DNA of 34,130 nucleotides from a virus. Positions within the stretch are counted from its first letter, which is position 1. Each line of letters starts with the position of its first letter. The position numbers were made by a program, and so were the translations under genes. Shown piece after piece: positions 18,536-23,021 of the stretch. Under the pieces are notes generated by a model. It saw nothing but the letters and a program-made list of their open reading frames with translations. It ran no database searches and was not told the origin of the DNA. Location of the stretch: the IMG/VR virus record IMGVR_UViG_3300025769_000426, positions 1-34,130 of that record; one strand, given 5' to 3'.

Positions 18536-18958
18536 TTAGTAAGTTTGTTTAAAGTAATCCCAATTATCCTTATGCTTCTCATGTTTAGCCTGAGAGTCAG
18601 GATTATGGGGGTACACAGCTATCCTGATGGCAGAGTCAATATCTAGGCATGGTATGATATACCAAATATCCTCAGACTCCACATAGGCCGCTAGGGCATC
18701 AATCTTAGTGCAATCCAAGGTATTTTTCTTTGAGCTACCTGTTGCCGTTGTGATCATATATCTCCCCATACCACCATTAGCTTTATCTATTACTTTGTTT
18801 TTAGTGCCTTTAATCTGTATCCTGAAGATCCTACCCGCCTGATTCATTATGATACAGTCTTGTGGTAGGTAGTCACCAAGAGGAGTAAATACCTCTAGGT
18901 TTCGAGATAGTGCCTCTGTGAAGAACTTTTGTTCATAGAGGTTACCTCTTCTTTTCAT
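18536..18958 (-). CDS. PD-(D/E)XK-type nuclease-like protein, 140 aa
   Basis: The protein opens MKRRGNLYEQKFFTEALSRN (Glu9), then has FTPLGDYLPQDCIIMN (Asp34) and RIFRIQIKGT (Gln48-x-Lys50). This order is the pattern of small PD-(D/E)XK nucleases in which Gln replaces the second acid. Related proteins include restriction-like and Holliday-junction-resolving enzymes. The later part (SEDIWYIIPC) is a usual final strand of the fold. Its start overlaps the stop of the upstream gene (ATGA). Substrate unknown. Confidence 0.6.
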   Translation of the reverse strand: MKRRGNLYEQKFFTEALSRNLEVFTPLGDYLPQDCIIMNQAGRIFRIQIKGTKNKVIDKANGGMGRYMITTATGSSKKNTLDCTKIDALAAYVESEDIWYIIPCLDIDSAIRIAVYPHNPDSQAKHEKHKDNWDYFKQTY

Positions 18959-19490: not shown

Positions 19491-19892
19491 ATGGATAAGG
19501 AGGAGGCGAATCAGATATTAAAGGATAATAAGATGACTAAGGTCAGGTTTGCACAATTGATTGGATTAAAGGTTGGTACAGTCCATACAGCTTTTGGAGC
19601 TAATAAGCTTAGTCAGAGGATGGTTAGGAGACTTGAGAAGCTTGATATAAGGTCTGAGAAGAAGAAACCTAGTATTGTCGAGGGTATGATTAGGCAGACA
19701 ATGGATATACCTGTTAAGCAGACCTTGGAGGCTAAGATTATTGGGTTTCCTACAAATAAGTTTCTACGGATCATTAGGTTTACGGATGGTACAGAGGGTA
19801 AGTTTAAGTGTAAACCGAGCAAGCATCGCAAGATGGGTGAACAAGTATCGGTCAGGTTTATTGAGGGCGATATGTGGATGTTGGTTAGATAG
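19491..19892 (+). CDS. HTH regulator with C-terminal beta domain
   Basis: In this 133-aa protein residues about 14-50 (MTKVRFAQLIGLKVGTVHTA...) resemble a Cro/CI-type helix-turn-helix. Residues about 78-133 form a beta-rich domain (AKIIGFPTNKFLRIIRFTDG ... VSVRFIEGDMWMLVR). It is the first gene of the rightward modification/packaging block and faces the leftward genes across a 14-bp palindrome, the usual layout of a self-regulating switch. The start has AAGGGGG only one base before the ATG, tighter than normal. Confidence 0.65.
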   Translation: MDKEEANQILKDNKMTKVRFAQLIGLKVGTVHTAFGANKLSQRMVRRLEKLDIRSEKKKPSIVEGMIRQTMDIPVKQTLEAKIIGFPTNKFLRIIRFTDGTEGKFKCKPSKHRKMGEQVSVRFIEGDMWMLVR

Positions 19893-20825
19893 ATGTGGAT
19901 AGTCCCCAAAATGTTATCTCAATGTGTACAGGCTACGGAGGGATTGAGCTTGGACTCAGAGGAGCAGGCATGGATGTTAGAACAGTCTGTTACTTGGAGA
20001 TCGAAGTTTATGTCCAAGCTCTATTGGTTAAAGCGATGGAGGAAGGGAGACTATGTACAGCACCTCTGTGGTCTGATGTTAAAACCTTCCCATCATCAGA
20101 GTTTCGTGGAAAAATATGTGGCATCGTTGGAGGATATCCATGTCAGCCATTTAGCTCAGCCGGAAGGAGACAGGGAGAAGAAGACCCAAGGCACTTGTGG
20201 CCACACATCCGAAGACACATCAGGGCAATTAGACCTGTTTGGTGTTTCTTTGAGAATGTCCTCGGACATACCTCGATGGGGTTATGGAGAGTCCTGTCCG
20301 ATTTGGAAACAGAAGGTTACCGATGCGTATGGGGAGTATTCTCAGCGGAAGAAGTTGGCGCACCCCACCAAAGAAAAAGAGTCTTTATCTTGGCCATCTC
20401 CGAGGGCAGGAAATCCGGGGAGTCGGAAACCGGGGACAGGAGGGAAAGTGCTTTCGGAGGAAGCAAAGAGATGGGGGACACCACAGGCAAGCGACCATGT
20501 GGAGGGAGCAAGGACAAGGGTGGACAGTGGTCAGAAGTGTTTGGGAAGGGATTTGAATCGATTAAATTCCCATCAAGACCAAATGAACAACAATACGAAT
20601 GGGAAGCACCAAGAGTCGTGGGCAACACCGATAATGGGGGACGCACATCTCGCAAGCACTCCCGAAGCAGCGAAGAAAAGGTTGGAGGAGGGAAAGAAAA
20701 CACTAAGCAGACAGACAACGGGCAAGCTCAATCCGAATTGGGTGGAGCAATTGATGGGACTTCCCATCGGGTGGACAGACTTAGGCTCTTGGGGAACGGA
20801 GTCTGCCCACAAACAGCAGAATTAG
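19893..20825 (+). CDS. Overlapping reading frame, 310 aa, inside the C5-methyltransferase gene
   Basis: This frame is open for 310 codons across almost the whole methyltransferase gene. It starts with ATG two bases before the methyltransferase GTG (the sequence ATGTG holds both). The product is Trp/Pro/Gly/Lys-rich: LKRWRKGDYVQHLCGLMLKP near 46-65, repeated (S/A)WP(S/T)P and WGTPQASD elements, and an ending GKLNPNWVEQLMGLPIGWTD (about 278-297). From memory, the final motif recurs in phage proteins, some annotated as methyltransferase-associated, so this frame may be expressed. Alternatively the frame is merely kept open by constraint. If translated, a later ATG (such as 20010) could be the real start. 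Confidence 0.5.
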   Translation: MWIVPKMLSQCVQATEGLSLDSEEQAWMLEQSVTWRSKFMSKLYWLKRWRKGDYVQHLCGLMLKPSHHQSFVEKYVASLEDIHVSHLAQPEGDREKKTQGTCGHTSEDTSGQLDLFGVSLRMSSDIPRWGYGESCPIWKQKVTDAYGEYSQRKKLAHPTKEKESLSWPSPRAGNPGSRKPGTGGKVLSEEAKRWGTPQASDHVEGARTRVDSGQKCLGRDLNRLNSHQDQMNNNTNGKHQESWATPIMGDAHLASTPEAAKKRLEEGKKTLSRQTTGKLNPNWVEQLMGLPIGWTDLGSWGTESAHKQQN

Positions 20826-20866
20826 CATGGAGAACTTTATGGCAAAAACTTTCAGAGCAATCCTAA
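19895..20866 (+). CDS. DNA cytosine-C5 methyltransferase
   Basis: The 323-aa enzyme transfers a methyl group from S-adenosylmethionine to C5 of cytosine in a recognition sequence. Motif I is MCTGYGGIELGLRGAG (10-25), motif IV VGGYPCQPFSSAG (78-90, catalytic Cys83) and motif VI FFENV (118-122). Motif VIII is GAPHQRKRVFI (155-165), and motifs IX/X are VDRLRLLGNGVCPQTAELAW near the C-terminus. The region between about 170 and 290, where the target recognition domain lies, is low-complexity and Gly/Ser/Lys-rich, and it coincides with the well-patterned part of the overlapping frame. I take GTG at 19895 as start; an ATG at 19922 would begin right at motif I. No cognate restriction enzyme is evident, so a protective role is likely. 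Confidence 0.9.
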   Translation: MDSPQNVISMCTGYGGIELGLRGAGMDVRTVCYLEIEVYVQALLVKAMEEGRLCTAPLWSDVKTFPSSEFRGKICGIVGGYPCQPFSSAGRRQGEEDPRHLWPHIRRHIRAIRPVWCFFENVLGHTSMGLWRVLSDLETEGYRCVWGVFSAEEVGAPHQRKRVFILAISEGRKSGESETGDRRESAFGGSKEMGDTTGKRPCGGSKDKGGQWSEVFGKGFESIKFPSRPNEQQYEWEAPRVVGNTDNGGRTSRKHSRSSEEKVGGGKENTKQTDNGQAQSELGGAIDGTSHRVDRLRLLGNGVCPQTAELAWRTLWQKLSEQS

Positions 20867-21820: not shown

Positions 21821-22255
21821 GTGAGTAGACCCATATACGAGACACAGGCAGACCTCGATAATGAGGCAAAGGTAAGAAAGTTCCTTTCAAGTGAATGGGA
21901 GTGTAGGTTTATTAAGCTGAATCCTGTTAAGTGGAAGGTAGATTTCTTGGTTCAGAAGGGTAATAAATACAGTTGGGCAGAACTTAAATGCCCGAAGATG
22001 AACTATGGTGACTTTCCGTTTATGATCAGCTACAAGAAGATCGAAGCGGCTAAGTTATTGCATGACACAAGCAAGAAGAAGTTTAATTTAATATACAAAT
22101 GCAAAGATTTGTTATGCTTTCACACTTGGGACTTTGATAAGGAGTATACTTTTGAGTATGGTGGACGTACTGTAAGCACACGTGACCCACAGGATATTGA
22201 GCCTGTATTCCTGATTGATCCAAAGGATTGCACGATAGTGGAGGGGTATGCATGA
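21821..22255 (+). CDS. PD-(D/E)XK-type nuclease-like protein, 144 aa (GTG start)
   Basis: The protein has a conserved Glu in DLDNEAKVRKFLS (Glu15), WKVDFLVQKG (38-47, Asp41) and SWAELKCPKM (51-60, Glu54-x-Lys56). A later YKKIEAAKLL helix is typical of PD-(D/E)XK folds. It may cleave or repair DNA, possibly the host's unmodified DNA; this is an inference from its neighbours (QueD-like, deoxyribosyltransferase-like, DpdA-like). The GTG start at 21821 sits in GTGAGT. Its end overlaps the QueD-like start (ATGA). Confidence 0.65.
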   Translation: MSRPIYETQADLDNEAKVRKFLSSEWECRFIKLNPVKWKVDFLVQKGNKYSWAELKCPKMNYGDFPFMISYKKIEAAKLLHDTSKKKFNLIYKCKDLLCFHTWDFDKEYTFEYGGRTVSTRDPQDIEPVFLIDPKDCTIVEGYA

Positions 22256-22608
22256 AAACTAAAGTAACAGAGAAGTTTACATTTGAGGCGGCTCATAGAA
22301 TAGAGGGCATTGGTAAAGAGAACTCAAGGATACATGGTCATTCGCATGAGGTATATGTTACTATAAGTGGAGAACCTGATGAGCGATATGGGTGGGTTAT
22401 TCCGCATGAAGAGTTTCAAACCAAGGCAGGGGCAATTGTTAAGCAGTTAGACCATACATATTTAAATGAGTTTATTGAGAATCCCACTGCGGAAATGATA
22501 GCTCGGCACTTGTGGTTAAAACTAATGGATAAAAAGTTCCCTGATCATATTACCCTCGAATCAGTCAAAGTCTGTAAGGTTGGTATGTGCGTGGAGGTGA
22601 ATGGATGA
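22252..22608 (+). CDS. queD-like: QueD / 6-pyruvoyl-tetrahydropterin synthase-like protein
   Basis: The 118-aa protein belongs to the PTPS/QueD (6-carboxy-tetrahydropterin synthase) family, which makes the second intermediate of the preQ0 7-deazaguanine pathway. Metal-binding histidines are visible: FEAAHRI (His15) and RIHGHSHEV (His28, His30). The Asp-His pair is in QLDHTYLN (Asp67, His68) and NPTAEMIARHLW follows. The catalytic Cys expected just before HGH is replaced by Asn24 or Ser25, and the conserved C-terminal Glu of the V-x-V-x-E-T motif is Lys109. I chose ATG 22252, with GGAGGGG upstream, over an earlier TTG. Activity is therefore uncertain. Confidence 0.8.
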   Translation: MKTKVTEKFTFEAAHRIEGIGKENSRIHGHSHEVYVTISGEPDERYGWVIPHEEFQTKAGAIVKQLDHTYLNEFIENPTAEMIARHLWLKLMDKKFPDHITLESVKVCKVGMCVEVNG

Positions 22609-23021
22609 TAGAGGCAAAATTAGTCTATTTAGCGGGACCAATCTATGAGCAAGATGACACTTGTATCCGGTGGAGAAAAGCTACGCACAAACTTTTAATG
22701 AAGAAGAATGTAATGTGCATGAAACCTACAGATGCAGATTACCGGGGCAGGGAGACAATTGCAGGAATACCCAAGCAGATTGTAGAGGGAGACAAGAAGA
22801 GCATTATGTATTGCGATACTATTCTAGCTAAGTGCGATCATCCTTCATATGGCACTGCGATGGAGATTTACTTCGCATGGAGTCTTCGTAAGCAAGTCAT
22901 CGTAGTTACAAATTCTTATAGTCCTTGGATTCGCTACCATGCTGATCACATCTTTCCAACATTAGAAGAAGCAATCGAAAATATAGAGTTCCCTGATTTT
23001 GATCCGGGCGTTTCAAAATGA
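22605..23021 (+). CDS. Nucleoside 2-deoxyribosyltransferase-like (DUF4406-type) protein
   Basis: The 138-aa protein opens with KLVYLAGPI (5-13), then has RWRKATHKLL, an Asp at 63 (EGDKKSIMYCD), and HPSYGTAMEIYFAWSL (79-94), the GT-x-x-E pattern whose Glu87 would be the nucleophile. The family cleaves or exchanges the N-glycosidic bond of nucleosides or nucleotides. Flanked by a QueD-like and a DpdA-like gene, it could prepare or recycle bases for DNA modification; this is inference. Start ATG 22605 overlaps the upstream stop and has GGAGGTG upstream; the last codon overlaps the next ATG (ATGA). Confidence 0.7.
   Translation: MIEAKLVYLAGPIYEQDDTCIRWRKATHKLLMKKNVMCMKPTDADYRGRETIAGIPKQIVEGDKKSIMYCDTILAKCDHPSYGTAMEIYFAWSLRKQVIVVTNSYSPWIRYHADHIFPTLEEAIENIEFPDFDPGVSK

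Follow-up and report, generated by a model that had tools for sequence, protein, structure and literature searches.

A phage methyltransferase gene open in two frames

The window analysed here, a viral DNA stretch of 34,130 bases (IMG/VR record IMGVR_UViG_3300025769_000426), carries on its plus strand a C5 cytosine methyltransferase gene that is open in two overlapping frames. Frame A (19,895–20,866) starts with GTG and encodes the 323-aa methyltransferase, here the alpha polypeptide; frame B (19,893–20,825), lying +1 relative to A, starts with ATG and encodes a putative overprinted beta polypeptide of 310 aa. The two starts, 2 nt apart, share one ATGTG (19,893–19,897), in which ATG opens B and the overlapping GTG opens A, and the two stops are 41 nt apart, with an overlap of ~930 bases. 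An earlier note on this DNA, which had described a 310-aa ATG frame over a GTG-started methyltransferase with a 41-base gap between the stops, was exact in its coordinates, and the B segments WPSP, WGTPQASD, WATP and KLNPNWVEQLMGLPIGWTDL are all present in the translation. Because B is shifted by +1 against A, the wobble base of an A codon is always the second base of a B codon.

Directly upstream, an ORF with a weak regulator-like match (19,491–19,892, plus strand; phrog_4779, E=2.3e-5) ends in a TAG that abuts the ATG of B. PD-(D/E)XK nuclease genes lie on both sides of the methyltransferase region (18,536–18,958, minus strand, and 21,821–22,255, plus strand), with matches to PF11645 (E=8.8e-13) and the phage PDDEXK family PF24579 (E=4.8e-21). 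A nucleoside 2-deoxyribosyltransferase-like gene at 22,587–23,021 (PF05014, E=3e-11) may be a sign that the window phage modifies nucleotides or bases.

Frame A carries the catalytic motifs and motif X

Frame A matches PF00145 in Pfam (E=4.8e-32) and phrog_363 (E=2.3e-55), and its residues 6–168 match M.HaeIII and M.HhaI. It bears the motifs that define a C5 cytosine methyltransferase: I (residues 9–21), IV with PCQ (79–87), VI with ENV (118–122), VIII (159–167) and X (292–315; RVDRLRLLGNGVCPQTAELAWRTL, 20,768–20,839, plus strand). Motif X was found in frame A in 75 of 75 loci, and a pattern search for motif IX in frame A returned none in the same 75. Taken alone, frame A thus appears to fall short of a monomeric C5 methyltransferase, in which motif IX stands between the variable region and motif X.

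A hypervariable stretch occupies 20,391–20,630 (plus strand). Here A consists of a Gly/Ser/Lys-rich linker and a conserved QYEWEAPRV (20,591–20,617), and B carries the repeats WPSP, WGTP and WATP (20,391–20,402, 20,472–20,483 and 20,619–20,630). Over residues 171–278 the mean modal residue frequency is 0.32 in A and 0.36 in B, indicative of hypervariability in both frames; outside this stretch, B reaches 0.70, 0.68 and 0.68. The special signal that the earlier note had placed in the recognition-domain region is therefore not confined there, since B is conserved along its remaining length too.

Both frames are under selection

The openness of B was examined by permuting synonymous codons within A, with the protein and the codon usage of A held fixed. 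The test set comprised 85 homologous genes (the window gene, seven phage records and IMG/VR loci) found chiefly with A alone; the IMG/VR search with A alone gave 80 loci, and almost all of the loci found in this way have B open along nearly the entire gene. In the window gene, the core of B contains no stop against 4.3 expected (p=0.008). Across the 85 homologues, 26 stops were observed in the B core against 492.6 expected, a sum that is not a p-value because the loci are related and their counts are not independent. The third frame of the same genes showed no depletion (1438 observed, 1447 expected). Taken individually, most full-length genes gave p values of 0.002–0.016, the exceptions being L004 (p=0.15) and L030 (p=0.14). 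As a control, the +1 frames of 14 other window genes contained 390 stops against 400 expected, again without depletion. The N-terminal half of B is protected as well: over its overlap with A from PCQ to motif VIII, 84 loci held 4 stops against 109 expected, and seven loci of the split sister group described below held 0 against 7.4.

Synonymous variation in A points the same way. At 70–80% protein identity, 24% (residues 4–170) and 16% (residues 171–278) of comparisons show a difference at four-fold sites of A, versus 45.5% in flanking ORFs; at 80–90% identity, the figures are 16% and 11% versus 47%. Over this range, four-fold sites of A thus vary two to four times less than those of flanking genes. 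In residues 171–278 at 80–90% identity, codon positions 1 and 3 of A change equally (0.212 versus 0.212), in contrast to control genes (0.12 versus 0.38). At 50–60% identity no suppression was seen in this region (0.60 versus 0.58), where both frames are hypervariable and the alignment is poor.

The open frame B is not a matter of chance, which the codon permutation and the control genes rule out, and both frames are under selection. The suggestion of two proteins encoded by a single stretch of DNA is supported by stop avoidance specific to B, synonymous suppression, a kept double start and the fact that distant phages conserve B as well. Scattered stops in B and unsuppressed synonymous sites, which the earlier note had named as evidence to the contrary, are the reverse of what the homologues contain.

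Frame B most likely carries motif IX

A database search with the 310-aa product, proposed in the earlier note, matched B over residues 74–297 to phrog_1008, labelled 'DNA methyltransferase' (E=7.1e-22), and to no Pfam or NCBIfam family. The final positions of phrog_1008 match motif X of A and not window B, which ends before motif X. This is as expected, because the split sister group has motif X in beta; the label itself does not record the two-frame arrangement. An AlphaFold model of B alone was of poor quality, with a pLDDT of 56, and a PDB search with this model gave no match.

The best conserved segment of B, LNPxWVExLMGxPxGWT, corresponds in the window to KLNPNWVEQLMGLPIGWTDL (20,724–20,783, plus strand), the end of which is overlapped by motif X of A. 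A strict pattern recovered an LNPxWVExLMG-like segment of B in 52 of the 75 loci, and it is recognisable by eye in the other 23. In a pattern search for the segment, ~130 of 153 occurrences lay in the +1 frame of a frame with PCQ and/or motif X. Five relatives (L236, L239, L242, L247 and L275) have PCQ, LNPDWVEWLMG and motif X all in a single frame, and in L242 the segment and motif X align with motifs IX–X of M.HhaI (LHPRECARVMGYPDSY being motif IX), a weak match of 4 bits that is nevertheless collinear. In mycobacteriophage Graduation, motif IX (EFYEWLMGLPRGW) sits in frame A, and frame B is interrupted by stops. The C-terminal segment of B is most likely the motif IX that is missing from A. 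As this would be a motif of the same enzyme, B is likely to be a second subunit of that enzyme and not a protein unrelated to it. The earlier description of B as a real conserved protein holds as regards conservation and selection, and its probable identity is what the present analysis adds.

A sister group divides the motifs differently

In a sister group of 14 loci, including one truncated record and with some motifs found by simple patterns, alpha ends 7–28 aa after motif VIII, and beta, in the +1 frame, carries the repeats, motif IX and motif X. An initial reading of these 14 loci as B without A was rejected, as most have a short alpha ORF with PCQ overlapping B. No stand-alone B gene was found among them, the short alpha being not demonstrated in L206 and in the truncated L266.

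One locus, L194, is a natural fusion of the catalytic part, WPTP repeats, motif IX and motif X. In its structural model, the catalytic part and the regions of motifs IX and X are confident and the WPTP repeats disordered; a fold search gave matches that cover the catalytic domain only. The five single-frame relatives have +1 stretches open for 150–250 codons, with a mild stop deficit (75 versus 93 expected), and may have arisen recently from a two-frame ancestor by re-fusion.

The double start is conserved

The double start is kept in all 74 loci found with A that have a full 5' end (ATGTGG in 62, GTGTGG in 11 and TTGTGG in 1), although the upstream sequence is diverse. A Shine-Dalgarno match of at least 5 bases is present in 28 of the 49 distinct sequences upstream, with aligned spacers mostly of 4–7 nt. 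In the window, no strong Shine-Dalgarno sequence lies directly upstream of the double start; the TAG of the upstream ORF abutting the ATG suggests possible translational coupling of the two. A second ATGTGGATG occurs at 19,870–19,880, within the last codons of the upstream ORF and ~22 bases upstream of the true double start.

In E. coli, translation of both frames can begin at AUGUG; Kohl et al. (2022) presented such an ambiguous start translating overlapping frames as novel, the second frames known in E. coli being very short (PMC9841429). Both starts are used at the equivalent of a spacer of 4 in our own conversion of the spacers, and AUG is favoured beyond (PMC9841429). The AUGUG/GUGUG sites of E. 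coli pqiA and tamA have the same start sequence and two frames two bases apart, but their second frames, of 15 and 10 codons, have no known use, unlike those of the present family, which are 250–450 codons long and conserved (PMC9841429).

A probable two-polypeptide methyltransferase

The analysis shows a conserved double start and a split of the conserved motifs between frames A and B. In our view, the locus most likely codes for a C5 cytosine methyltransferase made of two polypeptides, in which the beta frame is overprinted on that of alpha and the two are co-initiated. Ribosomes arriving at AUGUG would start either at AUG, making beta, or at GUG, making alpha. Alpha would supply the cofactor-binding and catalytic motifs I–VIII together with motif X, and beta would contribute motif IX and, probably, the larger part of the target-recognition stretch that separates VIII from X. 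Together they would form a single active enzyme, with the probable role of shielding the phage genome from host restriction. We infer from the sequences that both proteins are produced, that they pair and that activity needs beta. If so, cloning A alone is expected to fail.

It seems unlikely to us that B, as a real overprinted protein, does some other job, such as anti-restriction or regulation, with its motif IX-like end lying idle in the methyltransferase. Such a job would fit the well conserved N-terminal 170 residues of B, which have no counterpart in monomeric enzymes, and the lack of any known domain outside the motif IX-like segment; yet it leaves A without motif IX in all 75 loci, and B of the sister group also carries motif X where A loses it. 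The L194 fusion, moreover, joins the parts.

Programmed frameshifting, by which ribosomes on A would shift into B after motif VIII and one polypeptide would gain motif IX, is less probable still. The sister group, whose alpha stops shortly past motif VIII, does resemble a frameshift layout. However, B is protected from stops throughout its overlap with the catalytic part of A (4 versus 109 and 0 versus 7.4, as above) and keeps a start of its own, no conserved homopolymer run is present, and codons past the motif VIII region vary freely. The window class, in addition, would need a second shift back to gain motif X.

We find it hardly credible that B is an untranslated by-product of the composition of A. 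A +1 frame does often have fewer stops than a +2 frame, and in the single-frame relatives +1 stretches stay open for up to 251 codons, but composition accounts neither for the result of the codon permutation nor for four-fold site suppression and the kept double start, and depletion is absent from the 14 other window genes (390 versus 400) and small in the single-frame relatives (75 versus 93). A homing HNH endonuclease hidden in the methylase gene, as inserted in that of mycobacteriophage ShiLan (PMC11855218), likewise an alternate-frame ORF in a phage methylase, was rejected as a virtually negligible prospect, given that B has no HNH family match in Pfam or NCBIfam, extends over the entire gene, catalytic motifs included, without an insertion, and contains the putative motif IX.

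Relation to known split methyltransferases

In M.EcoHK31I, a two-polypeptide C5 methyltransferase, beta lies inside alpha in another frame. Frame B, +1 to A over nearly its full length, has this alternative-frame arrangement, a defining trait of the type. The beta of M.EcoHK31I, of ~176 aa, starts inside alpha, unlike window B, which covers nearly all of A and begins at a start site common to both. In M.AquI, the two genes hardly overlap.

Two-polypeptide C5 methyltransferases are an established class (PMC3404938). As that source summarises the work of Lee, Kam and Shaw (1995), the larger polypeptide of M.EcoHK31I (YGGCCR) has motifs I–VIII and X, the smaller has IX, and both are needed (PMC3404938). 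The window divides its motifs likewise, with I–VIII and X in alpha and IX in beta, a likeness in motif layout that rests on the weak M.HhaI match of motif IX and on the in-frame position of the segment in single-frame relatives. The same source gives the recognition domain of M.EcoHK31I as predicted in alpha (PMC3404938), so the recognition stretch here may be shared between the subunits. M.AquI (CYCGRG) is divided after motif VIII (PMC3404938). The sister loci, in which beta carries IX and X, resemble it; the window class does not, as its alpha keeps X and only IX moves to beta. Motif IX in B, together with motif X in the beta of the sister group, makes a methyltransferase of the M.EcoHK31I/M.AquI type the most likely reading.

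Three features appear to be new: the overlap over the full length, the conservation of the AUGUG start and the broad distribution. To our knowledge, it is rare, except in small viruses, for same-strand genes to overlap over their full length with evidence of selection in both frames, and no description of the present dual-coding phage family was found in the open-access literature. We think it somewhat favoured by the evidence that this is a widespread phage, plasmid and prophage family whose near-full-length overprinted subunits would be made at a set ratio from one AUGUG, the first long conserved heterodimer from an ambiguous start. The family offers dozens of natural long examples of such starts with a testable product.

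Distribution and annotation

The two-frame arrangement occurs in phages, plasmids and bacterial contigs. Searching by tblastn with the C-terminal half of B gave matches in Paenibacillus, Acinetobacter, Lacticaseibacillus and Microcystis phages, and in those examined B always lay +1 to a methyltransferase frame. Both frames carry annotation in some Paenibacillus records. Database entries cover either frame or, under a single name, both, and the arrangement itself is almost never annotated, so that for many C5 methyltransferases the annotation probably describes only half of the enzyme. In Microcystis phage Mwe-JY08 (L005), only a B fragment (392–652) is annotated, as 'hypothetical protein'; its methyltransferase frame is truncated where the record ends and has no annotation. 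A Citrobacter plasmid (L368, 2240–3250) carries a more distant methyltransferase, the +1 frame of which has WxTxTAS repeats and QLNPHHSRWLMGLPVEW, and this suggests that the two-frame arrangement reaches beyond the families counted here.
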